Assembly (NCBI RefSeq): GCF_048771995.1
Contig: NC_133024.1
Location: 191,001 to 255,000 of the forward strand
Direction: 5' to 3'
Origin: Taeniopygia guttata
Lineage: Eukaryota; Chordata; Aves; Passeriformes; Estrildidae
Length of the DNA stretch: 64,000 nt
Positions 1 through 64,000 of this stretch are shown here, piece after piece; within the stretch, counting starts at the first letter, position 1, and every line of letters starts with the position of its first letter. The notes below the pieces were generated by a model. It was not told the DNA's origin. It searched no databases and saw only the letters and a list, made by a program, of their open reading frames with translations. A program made the translations under genes and the position numbers.

Positions 1-1070
1 GAGGATTTGGGGGTTTGGGGGATTTTTGGGGGGGATATTTGGGGGGTTTTGGGGATTTGGGGGACTTCAGGGGGGATTTTTAGGGGATTTTGGGGGTTTG
101 GGATCTGGGGGATTTTTGGGGTTTGGGATTTTGGAATTGAGGGGATTTTTGGGGAATATTTGGGGTTTTTGGGGATGTAGGGGATTTGGGTGTTTGGGAT
201 TTTGGGGATTTTTGGGGGATTTTTGGAGGATTTTGGGATTTAGGGGATTTTTGGGGTTTGGGATTTTGGATTTAGGGGATTTTTGGGGGATTTTTGGAGC
301 ATTTTGGGGTTTGGGGGGATTTAGGGGATTTTGGGGTTTGGGATTTGGGGATTTTTGGAGGATTTTGGGGTTTGGGGGATTTTTGGGGGGGATATTTGGG
401 GGGATTTTTGGGGATTTGGGGGACTTCAGGGGGGATTTTTAGGGGATTTTGGGGGTTTGGGATCTGGGGGATTTTTGGGGTTTGGGATTTTGGAATTGAG
501 GGGATTTTTGGGGAATATTTGGGGTTTTTGGGGATGTAGGGGATTTGGGTGTTTGGGATTTTGGGGATTTTTGGGGGATTTTTGGAGGATTTTGGGATTT
601 AGGGGATTTTAGGGGTTTGGGATTTTGGATTTAGGGGATTTTTGGGGGATTTTTGGAGCATTTTGGGGTTTGGGGGGATTTAGGGGATTTTGGGGTTTGG
701 GATTTGGGGATTTTTGGAGGATTTTGGGGTTTGGGGGATTTTTGGGGGGGATATTTGGGGGGTTTTGGGGATTTGGGGGACTTCAGGGGGGATTTTTAGG
801 GGATTTTGGGGGTTTGGGATCTGGGGGATTTTTGGGGTTTGGGATTTTGGAATTGAGGGGATTTTTGGGGAATATTTGGGGTTTTTGGGGATGTAGGGGA
901 TTTGGGGGTTTGGGATTTGGGGATTTTTGGAGGATTTTGGGGTTTTGGGTTTTTTTGAGGTCTAGTGTTTTTTGGGGGGGTTTGGGGGGGGGGGTTTGGG
1001 AATTTGAAATTTAGGGGATTTTTGGGGGATGTTTGAGGTTTGGGGGGATTTTGGGGGGATTTGGGGTTTC
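1..1070 (+). repeat. G-run minisatellite, 357-bp higher-order unit (U0)
   Basis: The array is built from short blocks such as GGGGATTTTTGGGG, GGGGTTTGGGATTTTGG and GGGGACTTCAGGGGGG. The blocks recur in a fixed order, giving a higher-order period of about 357-359 bp (for example the block at 331 recurs at 690). The plus strand has four-G runs every 6-12 bases throughout, so G-quadruplex potential is extreme. Long open frames rich in G, F, W and L cross it because 357 is a multiple of three. I regard these as translations of the repeat. The left end is cut by the window. Confidence 0.93.
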
Positions 1071-1078
1071 AGGCTCAC

Positions 1079-1278
1079 CCGGGCGGGTCCCGGCTCCGTT
1101 TCGAGGCGGTTCCGGAGCTGCTGCGGATCCGGGAGAGGCTGAGCAGGGCCGGGATCCCGGGAAGCCGAACCCCAAATCCCCAAATCCCCAAAATCCCAAA
1201 CCCCAAATTCCCAAATCCCCAAAACCCCCCAAACTCCCAAAACACCAAATTTCCAAAAATCCCAAACCCCCAAAAAAC
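1079..1278 (-). other. Exon-like CpG segment (1079-1138) plus C-rich tract; G-run strand switch (U0)
   Basis: On the minus strand, 1138-1079 is preceded by CCCTGCTCAG and followed by GTGAGCC, a good acceptor and donor. The 60-nt segment is open in phase 0 and reads PLPDPQQLRNRLETEPGPAR. It may be an early exon of the minus-strand gene whose later exons lie in the first segment of each unit (see 3284-6825). I do not recognise it. From 1169 to 1278 the plus strand is C-rich (CCCCAAATCCCC blocks), which is the reverse complement of the G-run pattern to the left, so G runs move from the plus to the minus strand across this ~100-bp segment. The plus strand is also open here, so coding status is unproven. 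Confidence 0.4.
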
Positions 1279-1304
1279 AGATGGCAAGGTTCTCCCCCCC
1301 CACG

Positions 1305-1795
1305 CAGTGCGCATGCGCGGTTCCCTTTGCAGTACGCCCGCTTTGCGCATGCGCACTGGAATTTCCGTACAGCATAATGGCCGGCTTCCTACAGCAGAGT
1401 TCCATTTTCCGTACAGTGTCATGGCCGCCCAGCGCATGCGCACTGAAATTTCCGTACAGCATCATGGCCGCCTTCCTATAGCACAGTTCCATTTTCCGTA
1501 CAGTGTCATGGCCGCCTTGCGCATGCGCAGTACCAGTTTCCGTTGCGGTGTCATGGCCGCTAGGCGCATGCGCACTGGGTTTTCCGTACAGCATCATGAC
1601 CGCCTCCCTACAGCAGAGTTCCATTTTCCGTACACTGTCATGGCCGCCTTGCGCATGCGTAGTTTTATTTTCCCGCGCGGTGTCATGGCCGCTAAGCGCA
1701 TGCGCACTGGAATTTCCGTACAGCATCATGGCCGCCTTCCTACAGCACAGTTCCATTTTCCGTACAGTGTCATGGCCGCTAGGCGCATGCGCACT
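1305..1795. promoter_or_regulatory. Tandem array of eight NRF1 palindromes, P1 promoter (U0)
   Basis: GCGCATGCGC, the NRF1 consensus palindrome, occurs at 1309, 1345, 1432, 1519, 1564, 1696 and 1783, with a one-base variant at 1651. The sites sit in a tandem repeat with conserved spacer text such as GGAATTTCCGTACAGCATCA, TGGCCGCC and GAGTTCCATTTTCCGTACAG. The TGGCCGCC elements could add weak YY1-like sites (inference). The array lies directly upstream, on the plus strand, of the CpG core at 1953. On the minus strand it lies between that core and the exon-like segment at 1079-1138, so a bidirectional promoter is plausible. Confidence 0.75.
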
Positions 1796-1952
1796 GGAAA
1801 TTCCTCTTCTGCGCGCAAAGCACCAAGCTTGTTTCCTGACCAGAGCTTGTTTTTGAGGCTCGGGCCGCCCGAGCCGCCGCCGCCCCCCGCCCTGCGCTCA
1901 CAGACACCGCCCCGCGCGCCGCTCGCCGCGCGCTCCCGCCCCGGCACCGGCG

Positions 1953-2520
1953 GCTGCAGTACCGCCCTCTGCCCACAAGGCGGCAGCACTTTTCAAGCGA
2001 GCCCGCCACCAGGGACTCGCAAGATGGCGGCCCGTGGGGACCTGGACGGAGAGAGGCGTATTACGCCGATGCCCGTCGGCCCCCGCCAAAAATCCGCACG
2101 CTCGCGGTGCTGCTGACCCCACAGCCCCTGTGCACGGCACCGGAACCGCCGCGGAAAATCCCGTCGGGGGGCGCCGGCGTTGGGGACGATTCAGGCAGTG
2201 TAGAAAAAACAGACACGGGTCCTCGAATGCCGACGTCCTCTTTTTCGCGCCATCTCGAGAAGGTCAAGCGAGTCCGCGACAAGCCACTCCCAAGATGGCG
2301 GCCGCGGGCGGCGGGCTGCAGTACCGCCCTCTGCCCACAGGGCGGCAGCACTGCCGCCCGCCACCGCCGGGGGCCGCCGCTCGCCTCGGGGCCGCGGGCG
2401 GGGCCGGCGGCAGAAAAGAACGGGCGCGATGCCCTCCGGAACCTGCCCTGCAGCAAATGCCCCAAAACATCCCGCGCGGAAAAGAACGCCAGCAAAAAAA
2501 CCCCCTGCCTCTAACCCAAC
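1953..2520. promoter_or_regulatory. CpG-island core with two YY1 sites and CTCF-like repeats (P1/P2 hybrid, U0)
   Basis: Very CpG-dense, TATA-less DNA. AAGATGGCGGC, the classical YY1 element found at or just after many vertebrate start sites, occurs at 2021-2031 and 2292-2302. The block GCTGCAGTACCGCCCTCTGC followed by CCACAAGGCGGCAG (or CCACAGGGCGGCAG) occurs twice (~1953 and ~2313), and its second half resembles a CTCF core with mismatches. The ATG inside the first YY1 site opens a 30-codon frame (2024-2116, beginning MAARGDLDGERR) conserved in all copies. It could be a leader ORF or first coding exon, but no good donor follows. From 1800 to 1950 the island also holds a (CCG)n-rich stretch. 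Confidence 0.7.
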
Positions 2521-3179
2521 AGGAACCAAAAGCAAAAACCTTCTCTTTTAAACTGCATTTCAAGCTCTTTTATTTTTATATTTTTCATATTTATATTCAC
2601 ATTCGGATTTATAACGTATATTGATGTGTAATTGTATTTTTATAATTTCTCACATTTATTCCTTTATTACAATTTATATTTTTATGCATTGCTTAATACA
2701 TTGCTTACATATTTCTATAGATAGATTTCTATTTCTAAAAGGTTTCTATTGCTTAAAATAAACCCCTGCCTCTATCCAAGTAAAAATCTTTTAAAAACCC
2801 CTTTTCTTTTAAACTGCGTTTAAATTTATCTCTATATTTCGCATTTATATTCAAATTTACGTTTAAAATGTAGATTGATGTATGGTGTTATATGAAAGTA
2901 TAAAATAGAAATGAAAATAAATATTCAGAAGAGATAGAATAGAAAAATCTCTGCATACATTGAATATATATTTCTATATTTAGAATGATATCAAAATAAA
3001 AGGTATATTCATTTTTCTTCCATTAAAACCCTGCCTCTAACCAAATAAAAAGCAAAAAAAAAGCCCCTTCTTTAAACGATACTTGAATATTTATATATTG
3101 TTTTCATCATTATAGTCACATTTGCATTTCTACTTTATAGTGACGTATTTAGAAATATATATCATATATATATATATAT

Positions 3180-3214
<35 letters not shown>

Positions 3215-3215
3215 G
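2521..3215. repeat. AT-rich block: three degenerate ~260-bp repeats plus (TA)n (U0 to U1 junction)
   Basis: Three diverged copies of a unit beginning CCTGCCTCTAACC start near 2507, 2765 and 3028. Each is followed by AAAAACC...CTTTT, TTTAAACTGC-like and TTTATATTC-like blocks. The block ends in an interrupted (TA)n tract (about 3157-3212) whose interruptions differ from the later copies. No gene is seen. Confidence 0.65.
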
Positions 3216-3283
3216 TAGCAAGATAGACAAATTATTATTTATATTATATTTCACACATACTGCTAATACTTATTTTTACTTAC

Positions 3284-6200
3284 CTTTGAATTTTTTATAT
3301 AGATCCCCAGCAACAATATTTAGAGCATCTGCAAATAAAAGACTGGGAAACAGTTATTTTACTCCATCAGAACTTGGGAAAGGCCAGATTTAGATCTCTC
3401 CAAAGGGTCAAAGCTACATAACACCAGTTAATACCATTTACTGTAGAAGCTGAACTGATTTTGGTCTACACATAAGTTTCCTGTTTCTGCCAAACTTCTG
3501 CATGAATATTAAAAGTCTGAAGAATGACCACAAGCAGATCACCTAAACCTACAAGCTCACTGTTTCCCATTTTTAACCATGCCAGGATCTTCTCTTTTGA
3601 TCACGTGAGTGGACATTTCCCTCTAAAACCTTCTGACCTAACCAAGAAGTCTCACCATTACCAAAGTTTCACACCAAAAGCAAAGCACCTCTGTCTGTAT
3701 CATGCCTGCTGATGGTGCCAGCACACAGTATGGCCCAAGGTGTCTGCCCCATGGATTTCCCCGGGGTATTCACACTTTTCCAAAGGTAGCCAGCACCTAC
3801 GCTGACTCTGAAAACAATTGCCCTTGCAAGAAGGGTCCATGGCAGCTCGGGGCACTCGTGGTCAGCCACAGGGCCTTGACACACAGAACAGGATAAAGGG
3901 ACTTGGAGGATTCCCACAGCTGGCCTGCACTGACAGATAGAGCAAGTCCCTTGGGATTGTGGAGTGAATTCTGCCTCCCAAGGACTGCAGGCTCACATCC
4001 ACACCCAGGACTATTCAGAAGAGCTGCAGCAAGAGCAGACATCGGGCAGCTCAGGGTTTCTCTAAGCCCAGTCCTACAAGCCTGTGGGAGCCACAGGTAG
4101 CCAGGAAGTTCCTGAGGAATCCAGACCCTCAGCCAGCAGCACAAAGTCCCAGAGCTGCCAAATCAGAGAGAACTGCCTTCCACCTCTTTTCGCTCACACA
4201 CTGGTGCTGAAAACTGCCAGACAGGCTAAAAGTCACTCAGGGAGATATAGAGGGTGTTACTGATAAAGAGTTCTAGGGAAGCTGGATGGCCAGCATCCAT
4301 CAAACTATCTTCTGGGAATCCCAGCTGTCACATTTCACTCCACTTTTCCCTTTAACTCAGGCTTTCCCCTTCCAGAATCAATTCTTCCTCCCCACCCTCT
4401 CCCACTCCCTGTGCAGATAGCTGGCAACACGCACAAGCTGGATCCACATGTGGTCACTGAAATTTGGCTGCACAGCTGACCTTTGCTGCTGCCAAAGGGA
4501 GGGAATTCCAGGCCAGAGCACCCCTCTCTGCCTGCCCTTCACTTTTCAGAGCTAATTGGCTTTTCTATCCCTTTCAGCACAGCACAGCATGGCCTCGTGG
4601 AGCTTGAAAAGCAGCAGTGGTTTTTATCACCATGGTGCAACGGAGAGAAGACTTCAGAGCATTTTCTGGGAACGCCACATACAGTTATATTACACTTGCA
4701 GAATTGTCTGGCTATTGTGTCTCCTAAGTCACACAGTGGACTACAAACAGTGCTGTTTCAGGGAAACTCTCTACAACCACTGAAAGTAAGTCACTAACTC
4801 TGTTAGAGCAGGCAATGGACTCACATGTTCACAAAAACTGACTACACATGCTAAAGCCAGACGCTTTGTAGGTAAATGAGAAACACCTCTGGTTTGGGGC
4901 CCATGCCTCAGGCAGCAGGTTTTTTTTGCATGGACAGGATGATTACTACTTGCGGGGCTATATGAAACATTTACCTTTTTATCCAAGTTATGAAAGAATA
5001 GCTTTGAAAAGCACAGTAATCCAAGGCCAAAAAGACAGGCAGACAAATGGACAGATTTCAGCCACTCGTTTGGTTTTCTTGGCGAGAGCTTTTTGCTCTT
5101 CCAAGGGCTGACCTTATGCATTTGCCAGGTCTGGATGATCCACTTGAAAAAAAAAAAAAAAAAAAAAAAAAGGCTTAAAGGAAATTTCAACAGCAGACTC
5201 TTCTGGAGGTGTCTTCTGTCAATCTCCAGCTTCCCACAGGACTTGGTGCTTGTCTGGGGCTTTTGAGGAACAGCTCATAAATTGCTGCTATTCAGCCACT
5301 GGCAGTTGAATCCTGCTTTATTTAGTTTTTGGAATCTTGTAGTGGATCCTCCCTGCTTCCTTCCTCCAGTCCCTGCTCACATTTAGTTTCAGTTTCCTGG
5401 AGCTAAGAGTGTTGACCCCTTTAAAAGCAGCAGCAGCAGCAAGAAAACCACAAAGCAAGAAAACCGTGTCCTGACCATAAATGTTGTACCCTCTGCATAG
5501 AGAGAAACTCCACCAACTTTTCAGGAAGAAGATGCAACAAACTCTTTTGCAGCATATCCTGATATGACAGCCTTGCAGCATACAGAATCCAGCCTAGCAA
5601 GGAAAAAATAATAAAAAAAAAAGTGTTGTGTTAAAAAAAATGCACAAGGAAAAGGTGCTATTTTACATGGATCACAGTAAAGCCACAACAACCTAAGGGT
5701 TAATTTCTTCATGAGAATGTTTGAAGTCTAAATTTGAAATCTGTTGTCAACTGCAGCTGGCTAAAATGGAAAGGGCTACATTTCTTTGCTTACCTTGATG
5801 CCTACTGGGATCTGCTTTAGGGCCAATTTTGCATGAAGCTCCTGGGAATTACTCATCTGTCTTCTTGCATGAGATGAAATATATCTGTTAGAAGGTTGCA
5901 AAATGTGTTAGGATGCATTGCAGTGCTGTGCTCTTCCAGGACAGAGGCACAAAGTCTGATTCTTACCGTAGCTGGGACTTTGGGGATTCCCAGAGCCATT
6001 TTCATGGCATCTAATTTTAGGTCCTTTTCAGACAGATTTGTAATGACAATTTGGTTTATAGCCCCTCCCTCTGTGCCAGGGGCAGGAAAGTCTATCAAAG
6101 CAAATGAGGGAATTCTTCATCCTGGAATTCTGCAGGAATTCCCAATCCCGGAAATCCGGGAATTCCCCATCCTGGAATTCCGGGAGTTCTCAACATTGGA

Positions 6201-6825
6201 AATCTGGGAATTCTCAATCCTGGAATTCCCCAGCCTGGAATTCCGGGAATTCCCGCTGCTCCCTTTGCCTTTGGAGCTGCCCTTCCTGGCAGAATTCCCA
6301 GATTTCCTGGCGGAATTCCCGGATTTCCTGGCGGAATCCCCGGATTTCCCGCCGGGATTCCGGAATTTCCTGTCGGAATTCCGGGTTTTTTCCGGGATCT
6401 CTCCGTGCCCCAGCAGCTCCCGGAGCCGTTTCCGCTCCGGGGGGTCCCGGTAATTCCGGCTCCCGTAAAACTGAGCCACGGAAAGTTGGGAACGCACCGG
6501 GATTCCCGGAATTCCCGGATTTCCTGACAGAATTCCCGGATTTCCTGATGCCATTCCTGCATTTCCAGCCAGGAGTCCCGAATTTCCCGTTGGAATTCCT
6601 GAATTTCCAACTGGAATTCCCGAATTTCTTTCTGGAATTCCTGAATTTTCCGCCAGAATTCCTGAATTTCCTGTCGGAATTCCCGGATTTCCGGCGGGGA
6701 TCTGCAGCCTCCGGGCCGGCGCCGCTTTCTCCACGATTTCCTGGGAATTTTGGGAATTTTTTTGGGTATTTTCTGGAGCTGCTCGGAGCCGTTTGGGCGG
6801 GGGGGTCCGGAATTCCCAGCGGGAG
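3284..6825 (-). pseudogene. Unidentified minus-strand gene fragment, several candidate exons (U1)
   Basis: I do not recognise this gene. Read on the minus strand, in transcript order, the candidate exons are as follows. An open stretch starts at 6825 after a T-rich tract and CAG (contains FRTPPPKRLRAAPENTQ). Another starts at 6470 after GTGGCTCAG (FYGSRNYRDPPERKRLRELL). 6070-5967 has acceptor GGCACAG and donor GTAAGA (contains QIVITNLSEKDLKLDAMKMA). 5856-5794 is exactly 21 codons, in phase with the previous exon, with donor GTAAGC (SQELHAKLALKQIPVGIK). 3328-3284 has acceptor TTTGCAG and donor GTAAGT (ALNIVAGDLYKKFKG). The 5967-6070 and 5794-5856 exons join in frame. The first two lie inside the GGAATTCC minisatellite and lack clear donors, so expansion of the repeat has probably damaged the gene. 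A 25-base poly(A) run lies at 5147-5171. The rest of the region shows only intron-like DNA. Confidence 0.45.
4578..4785 (+). other. Plus-strand exon-like segment, 208 nt (U1)
   Basis: A pyrimidine tract and CTTTCAG end at 4577, and GTAAGTCA follows 4785. One frame is open from splice site to splice site (69 codons after one leading base) and reads GLVELEKQQWFLSPWCNG near its start. It is repeated unchanged at 22083-22290, 39586-39793 and 57569-57776. I do not recognise the product. It lies within the span of the minus-strand gene fragment, so it is either an exon of an opposite-strand transcript or chance. Confidence 0.25.
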
Positions 6826-6830
6826 CTGAA
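6110..6830. repeat. GGAATTCC (EcoRI-like) degenerate minisatellite (U1)
   Basis: A dense series of palindromic GGAATTCC/CCGGAATTCCCGG cores is spaced about 12-24 bp apart with GGATTTCCTG and GAATTTCC linkers. The series is broken by two non-repetitive CG-rich islands (about 6380-6480 and 6690-6830). Open frames with an IPGN/REIREF or EFPDFL pattern on both strands are translations of the repeat. The cores are self-complementary, so the block should form hairpins. Confidence 0.85.
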
Positions 6831-6900
6831 AAAAAAAAAACGGGAATGAGGGAGGGGGGAGGGGCGGGAATTCCCAAATCCCAAAATTCCCAAATCCCCA

Positions 6901-8169
6901 ATTTAGGGGATTTTTGGGGAATATTTGGGTTTTTTTGGGATTTAGGGGATTTGGGTGTTTGGGATTTTGGGGATTTTTGGGGGATTTTTGGATTTAGGGG
7001 ATTTTTGGGGTTTGGGATTTTGGATTTAGGGGATTTTTGGAGCATTTTGGGGTTTGGGGGGATTTAGGGGATTTTGGGGTTTGGGATTTGGGGATTTTTG
7101 GAGGATTTTGGGGTTTGGGGGATTTTTGGGGGGGATATTTGGGGGGTTTTGGGGATTTGGGGGACTTCAGGGGGGATTTTTAGGGGATTTTGGGGGTTTG
7201 GGATCTGGGGGATTTTTGGGGTTTGGGATTTTGGAATTGAGGGGATTTTTGGGGAATATTTGGGGTTTTTGGGGATGTAGGGGATTTGGGGGTTTGGGAT
7301 TTTGGGGATTTTTGGGGGATTTTTGGAGGATTTTGGGATTTAGGGGATTTTTGGGGTTTGGGATTTTGGATTTAGGGGATTTTTGGGGGATTTTTGGAGC
7401 ATTTTGGGGTTTGGGGGGATTTAGGGGATTTTGGGGTTTGGGATTTGGGGATTTTTGGAGGATTTTGGGGTTTGGGGGATTTTTGGGGGGGATATTTGGG
7501 GGGTTTTGGGGATTTGGGGGACTTCAGGGGGGATTTTTAGGGGATTTTGGGGGTTTGGGATCTGGGGGATTTTTGGGGTTTGGGATTTTGGAATTGAGGG
7601 GATTTTTGGGGAATATTTGGGGTTTTTGGGGATGCAGGGGATTTGGGGGTTTGGGATTTTGGGGATTTTTGGGGGATTTTTGGAGGATTTTGGGATTTAG
7701 GGGATTTTTGGGGTTTGGGATTTTGGATTTAGGGGATTTTTGGGGGATTTTTGGAGCATTTTGGGGTTTGGGGGGATTTAGGGGATTTTGGGGTTTGGGA
7801 TTTGGGGATTTTTGGAGGATTTTGGGGTTTGGGGGATTTTTGAGGGGGATATTTGGGGGGTTTTGGGGATTTGGGGGACTTCAGGGGGGATTTTTAGGGG
7901 ATTTTGGGGGTTTGGGATCTGGGGGATTTTTGGGGTTTGGGATTTTGGAATTGAGGGGATTTTTGGGGAATATTTGGGGTTTTTGGGGATGTAGGGGATT
8001 TGGGGGTTTGGGATTTTGGGGATTTTTGGAGGATTTTGGGGTTTTGGGTTTTTTTGAGGTCTAGTGTTTTTTGGGGGGGTTTGGGGGGGGGGGTTTGGGA
8101 ATTTGAAATTTAGGGGATTTTTGGGGGATGTTTGAGGTTTAGGGGGATTTTTGGGGGATTTGGGGTTTC
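6901..8169 (+). repeat. G-run minisatellite, three 357-bp units (U1)
   Basis: Equivalent blocks start at 7074, 7431 and 7788, exactly 357 bp apart. A shorter lead-in follows the GGAATTCC array, and the block ends at the strand-switch segment. The 336-codon open frame over it has no residue pattern other than the repeat itself. Confidence 0.93.
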
Positions 8170-8177
8170 AGGCTCAC

Positions 8178-8378
8178 CCGGGCGGGTCCCGGCTCCGTTT
8201 CGAGGCGGTTCCGGAGCTGCTGCGGATCCGGGAGAGGCTGAGCAGGGCCGGGATCCCGGGAAGCCGAACCCCAAATCCCCAAATCCCCAAAATCCCAAAC
8301 CCCAAATTCCCAAATCCCCAAAACCCCCCAAACTCCCAAAACACCAAATTTCCAAAAATCCCAAACCCCCAAAAAACA
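8178..8378 (-). other. Exon-like CpG segment plus C-rich tract; strand switch (U1)
   Basis: Copy of 1079-1278, with the splice-like segment at 8178-8237 intact and the C-rich tract at 8269-8378. Confidence 0.4.
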
Positions 8379-8404
8379 GATGGCAAGGTTCTCCCCCCCC
8401 CACG

Positions 8405-8631
8405 CAGTGCGCATGCGCGGTTCCCTTTGCAGGACGCCCGCTTTGCGCATGCGCACTGGAATTTCCGTACAGCATAATGGCCGGCTTCCTACAGCAGAGT
8501 TCCATTTTCCGTACAGTGTCATGGCCGTCCTGCGCATGCGCACTGGAATTTCCGTACAGCATCATGGCCGCCTTCCTACAGCAGAGTTCCATTTTCCGTA
8601 CAGTGTCATGGCCGCTAGGCGCATGCGCACT
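8405..8631. promoter_or_regulatory. Short NRF1 array, four palindromes, P1 promoter (U1)
   Basis: GCGCATGCGC lies at 8409, 8445, 8532 and 8619. Compared with U0 and U3, the middle of the array is missing, removing four NRF1 positions while keeping the spacer text. This looks like a contraction by slippage or unequal exchange between repeats. Confidence 0.75.
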
Positions 8632-8788
8632 GGAAATTCCTCTTCTGCGCGCAAAGCACCAAGCTTGTTTCCTGACCAGAGCTTGTTTTTGAGGCTCGGG
8701 CCGCCCGAGCCGCCGCCGCCCCCCGCCCTGCGCTCACAGACACCGCCCCGCGCGCCGCTCGCCGCGCGCTCCCGCCCCGGCACCGGCG

Positions 8789-9352
8789 GCTGCAGTACCG
8801 CCCTCTGCCCACAATGGGGGCAGCGCTTTTCAAGCGAGCCCGCCACCAGGGACTCGCAAGATGGCGGCCCGTGGGGACCTGGACGGAGAGAGGCGTATTA
8901 CGCCGATGCCCGTCGGCCCCCGCCAAAAACCCGCACGCTCGCGGTGCTGCTGACCCCACAGCCCCTGTGCACGGCACCGGAACCGCCGCGGGAAATCCCG
9001 TCGGGGGGCGCCGGCGTTGGGGACGATTCAGGCAGTGTAGAAAAAACAGACACGGGTCCTCGAATGCCGACGTCCTCTTTTTCGCGCCATCTCGAGAAGG
9101 TCAAGCGAGTCCGCGACAAGCCACTCCCAAGATGGCGGCCGCGGGCGGCGGGCTGCAGTACCGCCCTCTGCCCACAGGGCGGCAGCACTGCCGCCCGCCA
9201 CCGCCGGGGGCCGCCGCTCGCCTCGGGGCCGCGGGCGGGGCCGGCGGCAGAAAAGAACGGGCGCGATGCCCTCCGGAACCTGCCCTGCAGCAAATGCCCC
9301 AAAACATCCCGCGCGGAAAAGAACGCCAGCAAAAAAACCCCTGCCTCTAACC
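8789..9352. promoter_or_regulatory. P1 CpG-island core, two YY1 sites (U1)
   Basis: YY1 elements lie at 8858-8868 and 9129-9139. The first CTCF-like block is altered here (CCCACAATGGGGGCAGCG, in place of the CCACAAGGCGGCAGCA form of other P1 copies), a U1/U2-specific marker. A diverged stretch homologous to the start of the P2-side AT block follows at 9353-9650. Confidence 0.7.
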
Positions 9353-9649
9353 CAATAGGAACCAAAAGCAAAAACCTTCTCTTTTAAACTGCATTTCAAG
9401 CTCTTTTATTTTTATATTTTTCATATTTATATTCACATTCGGATTTATAACGTATATTGATGTGTAATTGTATTTTTATAATTTCTTACATTTATTCCTA
9501 TTATATTTTATATTTTTTCACATATCTTAATATATTGCTTATATATTTCTATAGTTAGATTTAGATTTCTAAAAGGTTTATATGGCTTCAAATAAACACC
9601 CTGCCCCTATCCAAGTAAAAATCTTTTTAAAAGCCCCTTTCTTTTATAC

Positions 9650-48100: not shown

Positions 48101-48286
48101 TTAAGAAATATCAAAAATAAGAATAACTAATAAAATATAACAATAAATAAAATTTAACACCATAATTTAAAAATCTTGTAACAAAAGTATACATTTTAAT
48201 TATATTATTACAATAATAATACTAATGATAACACCTTCTGTATGTTAATTTATGCAACAAATGCTTAACAAATCCATTATTAAATT
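45140..48286. other. G-poor, AT-rich block (U3)
   Basis: Same block with scattered substitutions. Its last ~40 bp differ from U1 (TTTATGCAAC and CCATTATTAAA near 48,250-48,285). Confidence 0.75.
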
Positions 48287-51200: not shown

Positions 51201-52166
51201 GGAACACTGTCTGAGACCACAGAGAGCCATCCTGGGTGAAAGGAATGAAATGAAAATGTTTTCTGGCAGAAAATGAGCGTCTGTAATCAGAACCTCTGGA
51301 CAGATTTAGTAACACCACTTTCAGATGATAAATACAGGCCATGCCCATCCTTCCAGGCCAGGTGAAACCAGGAAGGAGAACTACAGGAAAAGCAGGAAGA
51401 CAGAGCCCCTTATTTGGATATATATAGAATGCCCCTGGTTTGGTGGTTTGCCTTTGCTCCTAAGCTTTGGCTTCACCCCTCTCCAGAGGAGCAGGGAATT
51501 CCTCCAGGGTGAGGGGGAGTCTGGTCCCACTCCAGGATGTGTCCAGTAAAGGAGGGAATTTGTTTAGAGTAAGTGAGCAGTGTTTTTGTTACACACAAAA
51601 ATCAAACCAAACAAACACTGAATTGGACTACACCGAGCTGCAACACAGAGTGTTCACAGCAGGCAGAGGCCAGAGGAGCACACAGCACCCAGAAGTACCA
51701 TTTCACTTGGTTCTTCTGCTCTCATGCATTTTAATTCTGCTTCGCTTCACAGCTGCTACTCTGCCAAGGCCATTTCCATTTTCAGAAGCCTGTGTCACCT
51801 GTAGCCAAGGCTTAAACATCACAGGATCTATGTGCACTTCAGTGATCTTACACTAAGTACCTCAGAAACCAAAAGAATAAATCCAAGACTTCAGCTGGGT
51901 TAAAAATACCAGAACAACAAATAAGCAAACAAAAACCCAAACCCGCCTTTCCACTAGTTTTAAAAACAGAAGTCTTTACAACCAGCATAAAATGAATGTA
52001 ACATTTGGATCCAAGCAGAGGTACAATTTAAATGCCAGTATTCTGGAACTGCTAATAACTCTGCAAGTATTTACATGGGTGGATGTGTTACTGGATGGAA
52101 AGAATATAATGCACGAAAGAGAAGATTAGCTGTGTTTAGGATGGGAAGAAGATGACTAAAAAATAC
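48287..52166. other. URB1-side intronic/3-prime DNA (U3)
   Basis: More substitutions and small indels against U1/U2 than any other region. These break several open frames seen in U1, which supports treating those frames as non-coding. The plus-strand exon-like segment at ~48302-48470 survives. Confidence 0.4.
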
Positions 52167-54237: not shown

Positions 54238-54762
54238 CTGCAGCTGTTAAACAACACACTAAACCTAATTTTTTTCTAATCCAGCCCCAGACCACTCAAT
54301 GTCTAGGAAATGATGCTACAGCAGCTGCTAATCTGTTACAGAGAAGTGCTACACAGAGGCTCACTTCTTTACCCATCCTCTACTTCCCAGGGTCTGACAA
54401 GGCCTTATCACTGCTTGACCTCGTAGGCAGAGCTACAGCCCCATTCAGCCTGTTCCTGTCAGAACAACTGACATTTGTTTACAAACCAACAAAATCGTTA
54501 TCCCTACCTAAATACACCCATAATGCCTCAACCCATTCCCAGGAGGGCGGCAGGAGGGGCGGGCGCAGCCCTGTTCCGACGCCGCTCCACCCAGGCCCGG
54601 GAGCGCCGCGACCGCGCCTCCGCCGCCCGCCGGTACCGGCCCCGCCGGGCCGCCCTCGCGGCTGCCATCCTTCCCCGGCGCTGCCGCGGAGCCGCCTTCA
54701 CCGCTTCCCTTTTACTCACACACACCGCCCCGCTCGCCGCCGCCCCGCGCCCCTCCGGGCCC

Positions 54763-54948
54763 GTCTCGGTGGTAATTGGAGCCGCTCTTGCCACTTCCGC
54801 CACAACTCGGTGGTTTTTGGGCCGCTCTGGCCGCTTCCGCCCCGTCTCGGTGGTTTCTGTGGCCGCTCTTGCCGCTTCCGCCCCGTCTCGGTGGTTTTGG
54901 GGCCGCTCTGGCCCCCCCGCGCCGTCTCGGTGGTTTTCGGCCCGGCGC
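54763..54948. promoter_or_regulatory. P2 ETS-type ~41-bp repeats (U3)
   Basis: Unchanged from U1 and U2 by eye, unlike the neighbouring URB1 DNA. Confidence 0.6.
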
Positions 54949-54958
54949 TGGCCGGGGA

Positions 54959-55518
54959 GCTGCAGTACCGCGCTCTGCCCACAAGGCGGCAGCACTTTTC
55001 AAGCGAGCCCGCCACCAGGGACTCGCAAGATGGCGGCCCGTGGGGACCTGGACGGAGAGAGGCGTATTACGCCGATGCCCGTCGGCCCCCGCCAAAAACC
55101 CGCACGCTCGCGGTGCTGCTGACCCCACAGCCCCTGTGCACGGCACCGGAACCGCCGCGGAAAATCCCGTCGGGGGGCGCCGGCGTTGGGGACAATTCAG
55201 GCAGTGTAGAAAAAACAGACACGGGTCCTCGAATGCCGACGTCCTCTTTTTCGCGCCATCTCGAGAAGGTCAAGCGAGTCCGCGACAAGCCACTCCCAAG
55301 ATGGCGGCCGCGGGCGGCGGGCTGCAGTACCGCCCTCTGCCCACAGGGCGGCAGCACTGCCGCCCGCCACCGCCGGGGGCCGCCGCTCGCCTCGGGGCCG
55401 CGGGCGGGGCCGGCGGCAGAAAAGAACGGGCGCGATGCCCTCCGGAACCTGCCCTGCAGCAAATGCCCCAAAACATCCCGCGCGGAAAAGAACGCCAGCA
55501 AAAAACCCCTGCCTCTAA
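54959..55518. promoter_or_regulatory. P2 CpG-island core (U3)
   Basis: YY1 elements lie at 55027-55037 and 55298-55308. P2 marker bases are kept. Confidence 0.7.
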
Positions 55519-56164
55519 CCCAACAGGAACCAAAAGCAAAAACCTTCTCTTTTAAACTGCATTTCAAGCTCTTTTATTTTTATATTTTTCATATTTATAT
55601 TCACATTCGGATTTATAACGTATATTGATGTGTAATTGTATTTTTATAATTTCTTACATTTATTCCTTTATTACAATTTATATTTTTATGCATTGCTTAA
55701 TACATTGCTTACATATTTCTATAGATAGATTTCTATTTCTAAAAGGTTTATATTGCTTAAAATAAACCCCTGCCTCTATCCAAGTAAAAATCTTTTAAAA
55801 ACCCCTTTTCTTTTAAACTGCGTTTAAATTTATCTCTATATTTCGCATTTATATTCAAATTTACGTTTAAAATGTAGATTGATGTATGGTGTTATATGAA
55901 AGTATAAAATAGAAATGAAAATAAATATTCAGAAGAGATAGAATAGAAAAATCTCTGCATACATTGAATATATATTTCTATATTTAGAATGATATCAAAA
56001 TAAAAGGTATATTCATTTTTCTTCCATTAAAACCCTGCCTCTAACCAAATAAAAAGCAAAAAAAAAGCCCCTTCTTTAAACGATACTTGAATATTTATAT
56101 ATTGTTTTCATCATTATAGTCACATTTGCATTTCTACTTTATAGTGACGTATTTAGAAATATAT

Positions 56165-56205
<41 letters not shown>

Positions 56206-56206
56206 G
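55519..56206. repeat. AT-rich ~260-bp repeats plus (TA)n (U3 to U4 junction)
   Basis: The pure (TA)n lies at about 56161-56201. The structure is as at the other complete junctions. Confidence 0.65.
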
Positions 56207-56274
56207 TAGCAAGATAGACAAATTATTATTTATATTATATTTCACACATACTGCTAATACTTATTTTTACTTAC

Positions 56275-59200
56275 CTTTGAATTTTTTATATAGATCCCCA
56301 GCAACAATATTTAGAGCATCTGCAAATAAAAGACTGGGAAACAGTTATTTTACTCCATCAGAACTTGGGAAAGGCCAGATTTAGATCTCTCCAAAGGGTC
56401 AAAGCTACATAACACCAGTTAATACCATTTACTGTAGAAGCTGAACTGATTTTGGTCTACACATAAGTTTCCTGTTTCTGCCAAACTTCTGCATGAATAT
56501 TAAAAGTCTGAAGAATGACCACAAGCAGATCACCTAAACCTACAAGCTCACTGTTTCCCATTTTTAACCATGCCAGGATCTTCTCTTTTGATCACGTGAG
56601 TGGACATTTCCCTCTAAAACCTTCTGACCTAACCAAGAAGTCTCACCATTACCAAAGTTTCACACCAAAAGCAAAGCACCTCTGTCTGTATCATGCCTGC
56701 TGATGGTGCCAGCACACAGTATGGCCCAAGGTGTCTGCCCCATGGATTTCCCCGGGGTATTCACACTTTTCCAAAGGTAGCCAGCACCTACGCTGACTCT
56801 GAAAACAATTGCCCTTGCAAGAAGGGTCCATGGCAGCTCGGGGCACTCGTGGTCAGCCACAGGGCCTTGACACACAGAACAGGATAAAGGGACTTGGAGG
56901 ATTCCCACAGCTGGCCTGCACTGACAGATAGAGCAAGTCCCTTGGGATTGTGGAGTGAATTCTGCCTCCCAAGGACTGCAGGCTCACATCCACACCCAGG
57001 ACTATTCAGAAGAGCTGCAGCAAGAGCAGACATCGGGCAGCTCAGGGTTTCTCTAAGCCCAGTCCTACAAGCCTGTGGGAGCCACAGGTAGCCAGGAAGT
57101 TCCTGAGGAATCCAGACCCTCAGCCAGCAGCACAAAGTCCCAGAGCTGCCAAATCAGAGAGAACTGCCTTCCACCTCTTTTCGCTCACACACTGGTGCTG
57201 AAAACTGCCAGACAGGCTAAAAGTCACTCAGGGAGATATAGAGGGTGTTACTGATAAAGAGTTCTAGGGAAGCTGGATGGCCAGCATCCATCAAACTATC
57301 TTCTGGAAATCCCAGCTGTCACATTTCACTCCACTTTTCCCTTTAACTCAGGCTTTCCCCTTCCAGAATCAATTCTTCCTCCCCACCCTCTCCCACTCCC
57401 TGTGCAGATAGCTGGCAACACGCACAAGCTGGATCCACATGTGGTCACTGAAATTTGGCTGCACAGCTGACCTTTGCTGCTGCCAAAGGGAGGGAATTCC
57501 AGGCCAGAGCACCCCTCTCTGCCTGCCCTTCACTTTTCAGAGCTAATTGGCTTTTCTATCCCTTTCAGCACAGCACAGCATGGCCTCGTGGAGCTTGAAA
57601 AGCAGCAGTGGTTTTTATCACCATGGTGCAACGGAGAGAAGACTTCAGAGCATTTTCTGGGAACGCCACATACAGTTATATTACACTTGCAGAATTGTCT
57701 GGCTATTGTGTCTCCTAAGTCACACAGTGGACTACAAACAGTGCTGTTTCAGGGAAACTCTCTACAACCACTGAAAGTAAGTCACTAACTCTGTTAGAGC
57801 AGGCAATGGACTCACATGTTCACAAAAACTGACTACACATGCTAAAGCCAGACGCTTTGTAGGTAAATGAGAAACACCTCTGGTTTGGGGCCCATCCCTC
57901 AGGCAGCAGGTTTTTTTTGCATGGACAGGATGATTACTACTTGCGGGGCTATATGAAACATTTACCTTTTTATCCAAGTTATGAAAGAATAGCTTTGAAA
58001 AGCACAGTAATCCAAGGCCAAAAAGACAGGCAGACAAATGGACAGATTTCAGCCACTCGTTTGGTTTTCTTGGCGAGAGCTTTTTGCTCTTCCAAGGGCT
58101 GACCTTATGCATTTGCCAGGTCTGGATGATCCACTTGAAAAAAAAAAAAAAAAAAAAAAAAAGGCTTAAAGGAAATTTCAACAGCAGACTCTTCTGGAGG
58201 TGTCTTCTGTCAATCTCCAGCTTCCCACAGGACTTGGTGCTTGTCTGGGGCTTTTGAGGAACAGCTCATAAATTGCTGCTATTCAGCCACTGGCAGTTGA
58301 ATCCTGCTTTATTTAGTTTTTGGAATCTTGTAGTGGATCCTCCCTGCTTCCTTCCTCCAGTCCCTGCTCACATTTAGTTTCAGTTTCCTGGAGCTAAGAG
58401 TGTTGACCCCTTTAAAAGCAGCAGCAGCAGCAAGAAAACCACAAAGCAAGAAAACCCTGTCCTGACCATAAATGTTGTACCCTCTGCATAGAGAGAAACT
58501 CCACCAACTTTTCAGGAAGAAGATGCAACAAACTCTTTTGCAGCATATCCTGATATGACAGCCTTGCAGCATACAGAATCCAGCCCAGCAAGGAAAAAAT
58601 AAAAAAAAAAAGTGTTGTGTTAAAAAAAATGCACAAGGAAAAGGTGCTATTTTACATGGATCACAGTAAAGCCACAACAACCTAAGGGTTAATTTCTTCA
58701 TGAGAATGTTTGAAGTCTAAATTTGAAATCTGTTGTCAACTGCAGCTGGCTAAAATGGAAAGGGCTACATTTCTTTGCTTACCTTGATGCCTACTGGGAT
58801 CTGCTTTAGGGCCAATTTTGCATGAAGCTCCTGGGAATTACTCATCTGTCTTCTTGCATGAGATGAAATATATCTGTTAGAAGGTTGCAAAATGTGTTAG
58901 GATGCATTGCAGTGCTGTGCTCTTCCAGGACAGAGGCACAAAGTCTGATTCTTACCGTAGCTGGGACTTTGGGGATTCCCAGAGCCATTTTCATGGCATC
59001 TAATTTTAGGTCCTTTTCAGACAGATTTGTAATGACAATTTGGTTTATAGCCCCTCCCTCTGTGCCAGGGGCAGGAAAGTCTATCAAAGCTAATGAGGGA
59101 ATTCTTCATCCTGGAATTCTGCAGGAATTCCCAATCCCGGAAATCCGGGAATTCCCCATCCTGGAATTCCGGGAGTTCTCAACATTGGAAATCTGGGAAT

Positions 59201-59814
59201 TCTCAATCCTGGAATTCCCCAGCCTGGAATTCCGGGAATTCCCGCTGCTCCCTTTGCCTTTGGAGCTGCCCTTCCTGGCAGAATTCCCAGATTTCCTGGC
59301 GGAATTCCCGGATTTCCTGGCGGAATCCCCGGATTTCCCGCCGGGATTCCGGAATTTCCTGTCGGAATTCCGGGTTTTTTCCGGGATCTCTCCGTGCCCC
59401 AGCAGCTCCCGGAGCCGTTTCCGCTCCAGGGGGTCCCGGTAATTCCGGCTCCCGTAAAACTGAGCCACGGAAAGTTGGGAACGCACCGGGATTCCCGGAA
59501 TTCCCGGATTTCCTGACAGAATTCCCGGATTTCCTGATGCCATTCCTGCATTTCCAGCCAGGAGTCCCGAATTTCCCGTTGGAATTCCTGAATTTCCAAC
59601 TGGAATTCCCGAATTTCTTTCTGGAATTCCTGAATTTTCCGCCAGAATTCCTGAATTTCCTGTCGGAATTCCCGGATTTCCGGCGGGGATCTGCAGCCTC
59701 CGGGCCGGCGCCGCTTTCTCCACGATTTCCTGGGAATTTTGGGAATTTTTTTGGGTATTTTCTGGAGCTGCTCGGAGCCGTTTGGGCGGGGGGGTCCGGA
59801 ATTCCCAGCGGGAG
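56275..59814 (-). pseudogene. Unidentified minus-strand gene fragment (U4)
   Basis: Exons lie at 59059-58956, 58845-58783 and 56319-56275, with repeat-embedded stretches starting at 59814 and 59459. U3-type variants are present. Confidence 0.45.
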
Positions 59815-59819
59815 CTGAA
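59099..59819. repeat. GGAATTCC minisatellite (U4)
   Basis: Matches the U3 form, including GCTCCAGGGGG. Confidence 0.85.
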
Positions 59820-59889
59820 AAAAAAAAAACGGGAATGAGGGAGGGGGGAGGGGCGGGAATTCCCAAATCCCAAAATTCCCAAATCCCCA

Positions 59890-61153
59890 ATTTAGGGGAT
59901 TTTTGGGGAATATTTGGGTTTTTTTGGGATTTAGGGGATTTGGGTGTTTGGGATTTTGGGGATTTTTGGGGGATTTTTGGAGGATTTTGGGATTTAGGGG
60001 ATTTTTGGGGTTTGGGATTTTGGATTTAGGGGATTTTTGGGGGATTTTTGGAGCATTTTGGGGTTTGGGGGGATTTAGGGGATTTTGGGGTTTGGGATTT
60101 GGGGATTTTTGGAGGATTTTGGGGTTTGGGGGATTTTTGGGGGGGATATTTGGGGGGTTTTGGGGATTTGGGGGACTTCAGGGGGGATTTTTAGGGGATT
60201 TTGGGGGTTTGGGATTTTGGAATTGAGGGGATTTTTGGGGAATATTTGGGGTTTTTGGGGATGTAGGGGATTTGGGTGTTTGGGATTTTGGGGATTTTTG
60301 GGGGATTTTTGGAGGATTTTGGGATTTAGGGGATTTTTGGGGTTTGGGATTTTGGATTTAGGGGATTTTTGGGGGATTTTTGGAGCATTTTGGGGTTTGG
60401 GGGGATTTAGGGGATTTTGGGGTTTGGGATTTGGGGATTTTTGGAGGATTTTGGGGTTTGGGGGATTTTTGGGGGGGATATTTGGGGGGTTTTGGGGATT
60501 TGGGGGACTTCAGGGGGGATTTTTAGGGGATTTTGGGGGTTTGGGATCTGGGGGATTTTTGGGGTTTGGGATTTTGGAATTGAGGGGATTTTTGGGGAAT
60601 ATTTGGGGTTTTTGGGGATGTAGGGGATTTGGGGGTTTGGGATTTTGGGGATTTTTGGGGGATTTTTGGAGGATTTTGGGATTTAGGGGATTTTTGGGGT
60701 TTGGGATTTTGGATTTAGGGGATTTTTGGGGGATTTTTGGAGCATTTTGGGGTTTGGGGGGATTTAGGGGATTTTGGGGTTTGGGATTTGGGGATTTTTG
60801 GAGGATTTTGGGGTTTGGGGGATTTTTGGGGGGGATATTTGGGGGGTTTTGGGGATTTGGGGGACTTCAGGGGGGATTTTTAGGGGATTTTGGGGGTTTG
60901 GGATCTGGGGGATTTTTGGGGTTTGGGATTTTGGAATTGAGGGGATTTTTGGGGAATATTTGGGGTTTTTGGGGATGTAGGGGATTTGGGGGTTTGGGAT
61001 TTGGGGATTTTTGGAGGATTTTGGGGTTTTGGGTTTTTTTGAGGTCTAGTGTTTTTTGGAGGGGTTTGGGGGGGGGGTTTGGGAATTTGAAATTTAGGGG
61101 ATTTTTGGGGGATGTTTGAGGTTTGGGGGGATTTTTGGGGGATTTGGGGTTTC
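59890..61153 (+). repeat. G-run minisatellite with 332- and 357-bp units (U4)
   Basis: Landmarks lie at 60085, 60417 and 60774. It shares the 332-bp first interval with U3 but lacks the 222-bp partial unit. Confidence 0.93.
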
Positions 61154-61161
61154 AGGCTCAC

Positions 61162-61362
61162 CCGGGCGGGTCCCGGCTCCGTTTCGAGGCGGTTCCGGAG
61201 CTGCTGCGGATCCGGGAGAGGCTGAGCAGGGCCGGGATCCCGGGAACCCGAACCCCAAATCCCCAAATCCCCAAAATCCCAACCCCCAAATTCCCAAATC
61301 CCCAAAACCCCCCAAACTCCCAAAACACCAAATTTCCAAAAATCCCAAATCCCCAAAAAACA
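61162..61362 (-). other. Exon-like CpG segment plus C-rich tract (U4)
   Basis: The splice-like segment lies at 61162-61221, and the C-rich tract has the U3 form. Confidence 0.4.
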
Positions 61363-61388
61363 GATGGCAAGGTTCTCCCCCCCCACGC

Positions 61389-61879
61389 AGTGCGCATGCG
61401 CGGTTCCCTTTGCAGTACGCCCGCTTTGCGCATGGGCACTGGAATTTCCGTACAGCATCATGGCCGCGTTCCTACAGCAGAGTTCCATTTTCCGTACAGT
61501 GTCATGGCCGCCCTGCGCATGCGCACTGGAATTTCCGTACAGCATCATGGCCGCCTTCCTATAGCACAGTTCCATTTTCCGTACAGTGTCATGGCCGCCT
61601 TGCGCATGCGCAGTACCGAGTTTCCGTTGCGGTGTCATGGCCGCTAGGCGCATGCGCACTGGGTTTTCCGTACAGCATCATGGCCGCCTCCCTACAGCAG
61701 AGTTCCATTTTCCGTACACTGTCATGGCCGCCTTGCGCATGCGTAGTTTTATTTTCCCGCGCGGTGTAATGGCCGCTAAGCGCATGCGCACTGGAATTTC
61801 CGTACAGCATCATGGCCGCCTTCCTACAGCACAGTTCCATTTTCCGTACAGTGTCATGGCCGCTAGGCGCATGCGCACT
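61389..61879. promoter_or_regulatory. Long NRF1 array (U4)
   Basis: Eight positions, with the same GCGCATGGGC and GCGCATGCGT variants as U3. Confidence 0.75.
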
Positions 61880-62036
61880 GGAAATTCCTCTTCTGCGCGC
61901 AAAGCACCAAGCTTGTTTCCTGACCAGAGCTTGTTTTTGAGGCTCGGGCCGCCCGAGCCGCCGCCGCCCCCCGCCCTGCGCTCACAGACACCGCCCCGTG
62001 CGCCGCTCGCCGCGCGCTCCCGCCCCGGCACCGGCG

Positions 62037-62599
62037 GCTGCAGTACCGCCCTCTGCCCACAAGGCGGCAGCACTTTTCAAGCGAGCCCGCCACCAGGGAC
62101 TCGCAAGATGGCGGCCCGTGGGGACCTGGACGGAGAGAGGCGTATTACGCCGATGCCCGTCGGCCCCCGCCAAAAACCCGCACGCTCGCGGTGCTGCTGA
62201 CCCCACAGCCCCTGTGCACGGCACCGGAACCGCCGCGGGAAATCCCGTCGGGGGGCGCCGGCGTTGGGGACGATTCAGGCAGTGTAGAAAAAACAGACAC
62301 GGGTCCTCGAATGCCGACGTCCTCTTTTTCGCGCCATCTCGAGAAGGTCAAGCGAGTCCGCGACAAGCCACTCCCAAGATGGCGGCCGCGGGCGGCGGGC
62401 TGCAGTACCGCCCTCTGCCCACAGGGCGGCAGCACTGCCGCCCGCCACCGCCGGGGGCCGCCGCTCGCCTCGGGGCCGCGGGCGGGGCCGGCGGCAGAAA
62501 AGAACGGGCGCGATGCCCTCCGGAACCTGCCCTGCAGCAAATGCCCCAAAACATCCCGCGCGGAAAAGAACGCCAGCAAAAAAACCCTGCCTCTAACCC
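62037..62599. promoter_or_regulatory. P1 CpG-island core (U4)
   Basis: YY1 elements lie at 62106-62116 and 62377-62387. One CpG is lost just upstream (CCCCGTGCGCC at ~61,995, where other copies have CCCCGCGCGCC). Confidence 0.7.
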
Positions 62600-62901
62600 A
62601 ATAGGAACCAAAAGCAAAAACCTTCTCTTTTAAACTGCATTTCAAGCTCTTTTATTTTTATATTTTTCATATTTATATTCACATTCGGATTTATAACGTA
62701 TATTGATGTGTAATTGTATTTTTATAATTTCTTACATTTATTCCTATTATATTTTATTATATTTTATATTTTTTCACATATCTTAATATATTGCTTATAT
62801 ATTTCTATAGTTAGATTTAGATTTCTAAAAGGTTTATATGGCTTCAAATAAACACCCTGCCCCTATCCAAGTAAAAATCTTTTTAAAAGCCCCTTTCTTT
62901 T

Positions 62902-64000
62902 ATACTTAAAATAACACCTCCTCCCCATAAAGAGACCCATCAACCATTAGACAAAAAGCCCTAGTGCCAGTCTCATGCTTGCACATCTAACAGGAGACCC
63001 TCCCCATAACCAAACAAAAAATCAAAATAACGTACCAAAAGTAGTCCTTACTAACATTAAAAATACAACTCAACCGTATCCAAAAAACCCTCACCTTTAT
63101 TTCCTCCAAACACCAAATACTCTTCAAATTCTAAACAACAAAAACCATCAGAACATACTTCAAATATAGAAAAGCCTAACCATATAAATATTTGTCAAAG
63201 CCCACAAAAACTATAAAACAATCTAATCAATATCCTGCATTAAAAAAAAAAAACCCACTATACAAATTAGTACCATTTGAAATGTAACACAAATAAAAAT
63301 ATTTTCCTAAGAAACATGTCTCCCAATAAGTAAAACCACCCTGTAAAGATATAAGTAATAATCATAACTCAGCAAGCTAAAATTTCTTCAAAACCAAAAG
63401 ACTTAAAAAACCTTCAATATTTATAAGTAATAACATTTAATATGTTAAGTATTAATGAAATCAAACAAAATTAAATGTCAATACATTTAAACAAATACAT
63501 TTTCTTTTTATCAATTAAAATTAAGTTTATTATTCCTTACTATCAAAATTCATTCAGTCTAAATTTAAATGTTATTTAATATAACTTATGCTAAATTTTA
63601 TTAAAAATCATTTCTCTAAACTATACAGTATATGGTCAATTTTCTTAAAAAAATAAAACACCTCCAATTAAAACAACTAAAAGAAAACACTAACAAACGC
63701 CTATTCAGAAGTAAAAAAAAGTACACTGTATTATATCATCAATTTCATCAAAAATTCTGTACTTCATTACAATCTCTACTCTTATCTTTTAGAAGCGACA
63801 CCAAAAAATAGCAATTACTATTCATATCATGCTGTTTGAAAATTTTACTCTATTTCCTGAATATATAAATATTTTTTAAAAGTTATCCTAACTTCTTCAA
63901 ACACTTACCACTAATATACTAATTATATTATATCAATATATAAGCTTTTATAATAAACAATATTTATTAAATATTGTTATGATATTTACAACCAACTTTC
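62902..64000. other. G-poor, AT-rich block, cut by window end (U4)
   Basis: The first ~1.1 kb of the block, matching the U3 copy (GTACACTGTATT at ~63,721, where U1/U2 have GTACAGTGTATT). Confidence 0.75.

Follow-up and report, generated by a model that had tools for sequence, protein, structure and literature searches.

The 64,000-bp stretch analysed here (the window) lies near one end of a chromosome of the zebra finch, Taeniopygia guttata (NC_133024.1, C1:191001-255000), and carries a tandem array built from two cassettes, A and B, each headed by a copy of the same CpG island, H. The genome searched comprised 1.14 Gb in 41 contigs, of which C1 measures 115.9 Mb. Contigs C1, C2, C3, C4, C5, C7, C40 and C41 are presumably chromosomes 1, 1A, 2, 3, 4, 5, Z and W. 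C1 opens with 5 kb of N followed by CCCTAA telomere repeats at C1:5.0-6.6 kb, and the window is therefore subtelomeric, about 184-248 kb from the telomere repeats. The initial annotation had described tandem repetition at about 17.5 kb, and this was confirmed. Exact 24-mer pairs were found at offsets of 17,505 (16,495 pairs), 17,983 (5,980), 17,762 (2,839) and 17,503 (2,335), and self-BLAST of the window aligned 23.8 kb with 99.4% identity and 17.7 kb with 99.0%, far above chance expectation. The copies lie head to tail and the unit falls within the range of one to tens of kb, as in macrosatellites. The same annotation had assumed a single unit; the repetition holds, while the unit itself resolves into two independent cassettes, A (10.7 kb) and B (about 7 kb). 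The unequal repeat spacings result from B cassettes of unequal length (6,824, 7,299 and 7,078 bp).

All cassettes in the window lie on the plus strand and were delimited as H-to-H intervals, with short sequence marks, defined below, identifying their type. The window begins with the tail of a B cassette (1..1945), comprising a GGGGATTTT-type G-rich block, C4A3-type repeats and 44-bp repeats with NRF1-type motifs. This tail is followed directly by another B cassette (1946..8782; C1:193225-200062, one B mark), and no full A+B unit stands at the start. Next are an A cassette of 10,681 bp (8783..19463; C1:200062-210743, one A mark), a B cassette of 6,824 bp (19464..26287), a second A (26288..36968), a B of 7,299 bp in which the low-complexity scan shows a longer G-rich block (36969..44267), a third A (44268..54951), a B of 7,078 bp (54952..62029) and the start of a fourth A, cut by the window edge (62030..64000). 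Read inwards from its telomere, C1 carries a single A, then a gap, then four B, and finally A-B pairs plus one extra B. The first cassette begins at C1:99.2 kb, and the telomere repeats end near 7 kb. Within this array, 36,177 bp recur with zero mismatches at a distance of 42,457 bp (C1:148378-184554 and C1:190835-227011), the second copy corresponding to window positions 1-36011 plus the 166 bases before the window. This exact repeat is either a recent exchange or a stretch doubled in assembly, which leaves the local copy number uncertain. Between the telomere and the cassette array, about 348 copies of a 191-bp satellite, which we take to be Tgut191A, were observed at C1:23422-89864.

Eight copies of H, each with a core of about 0.62 kb, are present in the window, all on the plus strand, in agreement with the two CpG islands per 17.5 kb noted earlier. 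The copy before the first complete A cassette (8783..9400) has an observed-to-expected CpG ratio (CpG o/e) of 1.02 over 620 bases and carries two AAGATGGCGGC motifs. The same element precedes the other A cassettes (~26288, ~44268 and ~62030) and the B cassette at the B-to-B junction (1946). The copy before the next B (19464..20081) has a CpG o/e of 1.01 over 620 bases and recurs before the later B cassettes (~36969 and ~54952). The window contains 16 AAGATGGCGGC motifs, two for each of the eight H copies, and 27 GCGCATGCGC 10-mers, with about 0.005 of either expected per 17.5-kb unit. The corresponding factors are presumably of the YY1 and NRF1 types, respectively. Motifs such as AAGATGGCGGC mark the direction of transcription, and those in H are oriented away from the telomere. 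H is thus GC-rich, has a CpG o/e near 1 and contains promoter motifs, as CpG-island promoters do, and these islands are the probable start sites of URB1-like transcripts, truncated or non-coding. The earlier suggestion of a non-coding multi-promoter locus would fit this sequence, given the CpG islands, the NRF1- and YY1-type motifs and exons that show no detectable constraint.

The CpG o/e of H (1.0) differs from that of the A body (0.23) and the B body (0.12). When the A copy at C1:99 kb was compared with a window copy, transitions were found at 8 of 186 body CpG sites against 20 of 5,853 other body sites (p 1e-6), and at 2 of 258 island CpG sites against the same 8 of 186 in the body (p 0.02). 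Since CpG transitions are few in the island and many in the body, the cassette body behaves, on these small numbers, as if methylated in the germline, and the H island does not.

The A cassette contains a URB1-derived segment of 2.65 kb on the minus strand (16318..18966), with further copies starting at 33823 and 51808. Its parent was located at C1:19.60 Mb, where C1:19599939-19603343 matches window positions 17632-18966 at 88-90% and 16318-16361 at 98%; this 44-bp match sets the left end of the segment. The parent has 621 extra bases relative to 17632-18966, and three 401-base samples taken further along it gave no match. The exon mark of A falls in the parent at C1:19600639 (3 mismatches), on the same strand as, and 9-10 kb before, three matches to NopRA1 (PF16201) at 19.61 Mb. 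At the level of sequence, this confirms the URB1 origin proposed initially and identifies the segment as a paralogue fragment with colinear exons. Two exons of the piece, both on the minus strand, keep their splice sites (exon 1, 18526..18715; exon 2, 18144..18321). A putative third exon (17029..17140, minus strand) is predicted from splice signals only, and the spliced frame of A hits a TGA there. Further NopRA1 (URB1) matches were observed at C1:18.92 Mb, C1:19.447 Mb (opposite strand), C3:162 kb and C4:92.27 Mb, several of them with stops.

Comparison with the parent gave no excess conservation that would indicate purifying selection on the URB1 exons, although two exons with 122 codons offer low power. 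Differences affect 22 of 368 exonic and 36 of 496 non-exonic sites (p 0.49). The exon changes, 6 synonymous against 15 in non-synonymous codons, are close to the neutral share (p 0.80), and the Nei-Gojobori method (NG86) yields non-synonymous (dN) and synonymous (dS) divergences of 0.052 and 0.086, a ratio of about 0.6. The likeness among array copies does not appear, from these comparisons, to be maintained by coding function. The frame of exons 1-2 is kept in the subtelomeric copies compared (two on C1, two on C2) and in one Z-like copy, and exon 1 is free of indels in the fetched parts of the copies at C2:59.70 Mb, C7:9.67 Mb and on C40. In an older copy at C7:6.75 Mb, exon 1 contains two 10-base indels, one an insertion and the other a deletion.

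In published coordinates, URB1 is placed at 97.56 Mb of chromosome 1 and two duplicates on 1A at 60.92 and 63.52 Mb (PMC4377847), and the centromere markers of chromosomes 1 and 1A at 98.17 and 62.53 Mb (PMC5023761). If both papers number the same assembly, the URB1 parent and the 1A duplicates are pericentromeric. The 191-bp satellite was also considered as the chromosome 1 centromere and rejected, because the centromere marker of the older assembly sits near URB1, here about 19.6 Mb from the C1 start if the numbering is taken as reversed.

Two other blocks belong to the A cassette. A GC-rich block of 40-bp repeats (19050..19464; CpG o/e 1.02) adjoins the URB1 piece at the A end, and an AT-rich, strongly G-poor block (9700..12750, plus strand) contains 148 G against 556 C. 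Relatives of the G-poor block, at 86-98% identity, adjoin A copies elsewhere, including interstitial ones, and a search with it added a copy at the left end of C7 (C7:159.8 kb). Within the block, the share of G in G+A is lowest before A (5.5%) and highest before T (16.9%), much as would be expected if C on the opposite strand had changed to T in a TC context. Hypermutation was tried as an explanation and set aside: the composition and the neighbouring bases resemble an old one-strand G-to-A change, but two A copies differ little and not one-sidedly (A/G 4, C/T 4).

The B cassette contains two splice-consistent exon-like pieces of a further gene, recognised on the minus strand by exon search and splice signals (23472-23596 and 23299-23361). 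A whole-genome pattern search (36 bp, up to 3 mismatches) found no relatives of the B exon outside the family. Nothing reliable emerged when the URB1-like and B peptides were compared with Pfam and PDB, one of the peptides being in a frame that does not follow from exon 2. A weak Pfam match of B to a nuclear-receptor coactivator (expectation value 0.19) was not used. Next to the exon pieces, the low-complexity scan identified GGAATTCC-type degenerate repeats (23613..24198) and a GGGGATTTT-type G-rich block with many G-quadruplex motifs (24405..25557, plus strand), copies of which start at 6900, 41906 and 59889. Tandem repeats with GCGCATGCGC (at 8409, 8445, 8532 and 8619) lie towards the end of the B cassette, at 8409..8640. 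Three structure-prone blocks per unit had been proposed; the low-complexity blocks are present, and their structure was gauged by the count of G-quadruplex motifs alone, with 17 on the plus and 3 on the minus strand of one unit.

Because DNA searches for the parent genes were swamped by array copies, the distribution of the family was followed with pattern marks allowing up to 3 mismatches: a 36-bp piece of a URB1 exon for A, a 39-bp piece in a presumed intron and a 36-bp piece in an exon for B, and 41 bp of H. H was found at 105 places, 100 of which were listed. Among those listed, 99 of 100 are terminal, at most 2.6 Mb from one of 14 chromosome ends, and one is interstitial (C2:59.690 Mb). 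The listed copies lie on ten contigs (C1, C2, C3, C4, C5, C7, C9, C10, C40 and C41), all of at least 32 Mb; C8 (37.0 Mb) has none listed, and the sizes of 19 of the 41 contigs were read. Copies on C9 and C10 lie 0.6-0.7 Mb from the end, and those on C40 and C41 0.6-2.6 Mb. B marks occur at 55 places, one of them interstitial (C2:62.233 Mb), and no diverged B parent was present among the 55. A marks occur at 53 places: 16 at autosomal ends (C1 8, C2 5, and one each on C4, C5 and C7), 17 on C40, 13 on C41, six interstitial (three each on C2 and C7) and the parent. The array described initially is real, but the family is not confined to this locus, as copies occupy many chromosome ends. A sex-restricted amplicon, also proposed at first, is not supported, because eight contigs other than C40 and C41 carry copies at their ends. 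With regard to the germline-restricted amplicon suggested alongside it, the copies were observed at the ends of ordinary chromosomes of the assembly.

Among the copies listed, orientation relative to the telomere is constant, with one exception given below. The 99 listed terminal H copies and the 54 terminal B marks all follow one rule, plus strand at a left end and minus strand at a right end, and the 16 autosomal subtelomeric A marks agree in telomere-relative orientation (16/16). With only the ends taken as independent, such agreement would arise by chance about once in 8,000. Occurrence on several non-homologous ends in constant telomere-relative orientation is characteristic of subtelomeric repeats, the exception being A on C40 and C41. 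At C40:0.63-2.58 Mb and C41:0.57-2.47 Mb, 28 of the 30 A marks form 14 inverted pairs 25.6-28.2 kb apart, and two are single. These pairs and singles recur every ~150-330 kb, and 14 of the 16 are preceded, at 15-20 kb, by an H on the plus strand. This arrangement is taken to be a separate large amplicon on the presumed Z and W.

From the lists of marks, 67 pairs of neighbouring H copies lie less than 30 kb apart. One B mark falls in 51 of these intervals, one A mark in 14, neither in 2 and both in none, and the intervals holding A measure 10,601-10,687 bp. All four junctions occur. B-B is exemplified by the right end of C4, with 17 B marks spaced mostly ~7,126 bp apart, A-B and B-A are found in the window, and A-A is found at C2:71.866-71.887 Mb. 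A longer variant of B, with H intervals of 9.6-10.8 kb compared with the usual ~7 kb, was observed at C1:115.76 Mb, C9:0.70-0.71 Mb, C10:32.02-32.05 Mb, C40:0.63 Mb and C41:0.58 Mb.

Copies on different chromosomes are nearly identical. A copies on C1 and C2 show 0 to 3 differences in 876 aligned sites; for B copies the counts are 3 in 3,308 sites between C1 and C5 and 15 in 3,306 between C1 and C40. Whereas one C1-C1 pair shows 12 differences, some C1-C7 pairs show fewer (7 and 8). Such near-identity points to exchange between non-homologous ends, or to very recent copying. The islands themselves were compared in an alignment of 17 H copies from C1, with the type of both neighbours established for 15 (5 A-to-B, 6 B-to-A and 4 B-to-B); copies 109330 and 128589 have one untyped neighbour each. 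The left edge of H tracks the left neighbour and the right tail tracks the right neighbour, with few variable columns in the middle. In B-to-B copies, the left edge is as in B-to-A copies, and the right tail closely resembles that of A-to-B copies, with few differences.

Taken together, these sequence comparisons suggest that the array is probably a modular subtelomeric macrosatellite of the songbird that arose from pericentromeric URB1 duplicates and whose modules were shuffled through unequal exchange inside H. In the sequence of events envisaged, a URB1 piece would have moved from the pericentromere of chromosome 1 to chromosome ends, where it became linked to H. The cassettes would then have been shuffled, multiplied and homogenised by gene conversion and unequal crossing over in H, in a germline without PRDM9 where recombination favours CpG islands and regions close to macrochromosome telomeres. 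In the zebra finch, PRDM9 is reported to be absent, crossovers are enriched near macrochromosome telomeres, and recombination overlaps CpG islands above chance, 1.36-fold for crossovers and 1.54-fold for non-crossovers (PMC12047795). Repeated terminal CpG islands should therefore recombine, and the further step to the origin of the array is one that we infer. More tentatively, H may be a self-spreading recombination hotspot: a hypomethylated island would draw meiotic breaks in the PRDM9-free germline, and same-orientation H copies at macrochromosome ends would recombine and carry their neighbours, such as the URB1 and B gene pieces, into arrays on one end after another. This possibility would fit the listed H copies on ten contigs, all of at least 32 Mb.

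Several observations weigh against the exchange model as a whole or in part. Five of the 105 H copies, all on the minus strand, fall outside those listed, and A marks on C40 and C41 occur in both orientations. Two H-H intervals contain neither cassette, and one of the 17 aligned H copies (128589) has a wholly unlike left part. A dN/dS of about 0.6 would also be expected from weak constraint on either lineage. The island CpG transitions (2/258) do not stand apart from island non-CpG transitions (2/826, p 0.24), a test that few changes underlie, and young copies would retain their CpGs regardless. A spread in one orientation would also be expected from plain terminal translocations in which H has no role, and the exact 36,177-bp repeat means that the local copy number could partly be an assembly product.

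The last two points lead to distinct alternatives. Ordinary segmental duplication, in which subtelomeric blocks were copied by terminal translocation and unequal exchange took place anywhere in the unit with H as a mere passenger, would account for the shared orientation by terminal exchange alone and for flanks that are also common to different ends (501 bases at C2:71.970 Mb are 98% identical to C1:124.9-125.4 kb). It is nevertheless rather unlikely, as all four cassette orders occur around H and the H copies are mosaics of left and right parts around a middle that hardly varies. That part of the C1:148-227 kb array is one stretch laid down twice is an unlikely explanation of the repeat, even though the exact recurrence at 42,457 bp would be expected from it and repeat tangles on chrZ, two of them filled with model sequences, are described for the zebra finch assembly (PMC13060935). 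Other units differ by ~1% and in length, slightly diverged cassettes lie on many other chromosomes, and recent unequal exchange equally predicts exact copies. The concern about assembly duplication raised with the initial annotation is thus answered for the family by the diverged copies on other chromosomes and remains for the 36,177-bp stretch.

Two functional readings were also weighed. Arrays maintained by selection to make a URB1-like protein or a regulatory RNA, acting through dosage, as competitive inhibitors or as nuclear RNA, would agree with the intact frame of exons 1-2 in the compared C1, C2 and Z-like copies. Published expressed sequence tags (ESTs) and RNA sequencing (RNA-seq) for several URB1L copies, together with a nuclear in situ signal not assignable to single loci (PMC4377847), also agree with transcription of the URB1 duplicates, though not assigned to array loci. 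Such maintenance is quite improbable given exon differences as frequent as non-exonic ones, the 6 synonymous and 15 non-synonymous-codon changes that fit the neutral share, the stop in the predicted exon 3 and the two 10-base indels in exon 1 at C7:6.75 Mb. A promoter array resembling the source of telomeric repeat-containing RNA (TERRA), in which H and the GC-rich repeats drive RNA towards the telomere, would be in line with CpG-rich promoter-like repeats in fixed orientation at many chromosome ends and with URB1 and B exons directed towards the telomere. It is highly improbable, as the C1 array starts >90 kb from the telomere repeats and so is not adjacent to them, and the AAGATGGCGGC motifs face away from the telomere.

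The array can be set beside other known systems. The mammalian macrosatellites D4Z4 and DXZ4 likewise have kilobase tandem units, and D4Z4 is subtelomeric; they consist of one unit, whereas the finch array has two exchangeable cassettes on 14 ends. Primate pericentromeric and subtelomeric segmental duplications similarly spread gene fragments among such regions and are common to non-homologous ends, but the finch modules are separated by a CpG island and arranged in a tandem array. Among songbirds, URB1L1-URB1L5 of the zebra finch (Wirthlin et al. 2014, PMC4377847) were assigned to chr1A, chr5, chr7 and chr23; they lack the parent's domains, some of which gaps may hide, and several are transcribed. 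The interstitial copies on C2 at 59.70 and 62.21-62.22 Mb match the chr1A pair (60.92 and 63.52 Mb) in position. Truncated URB1 duplicates are thus already published. They were described as separate loci, and a tandem array, subtelomeric spread, a shared CpG island and a second cassette are unmentioned in the accessible part of that account (PMC4377847). In the willow warbler, 31-kb duplications with a truncated URB1 and a 116-kb tandem array are reported on chromosome 5 (PMC9883250); the likeness, a truncated URB1 in duplications at inversion breakpoints near a tandem array, is one of description. No published account of the cassette array was found in the titles and abstracts of the literature searched, and the array may have been described before. 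What the present analysis contributes is the division into two cassettes, the polarity relative to the telomere and the proposal of the island as the point of exchange.

If H does act as a hotspot, the array would be a by-product of hotspot placement, and the order of the cassettes would be a record of exchanges. H itself, with 105 copies, provides a countable marker for ectopic exchange between chromosome ends. If the proposed history is correct, the family would connect the movement of gene fragments from the pericentromere to chromosome ends with repeated CpG islands under PRDM9-free recombination, and with a possible source of the multi-copy URB1-like transcripts of songbirds.

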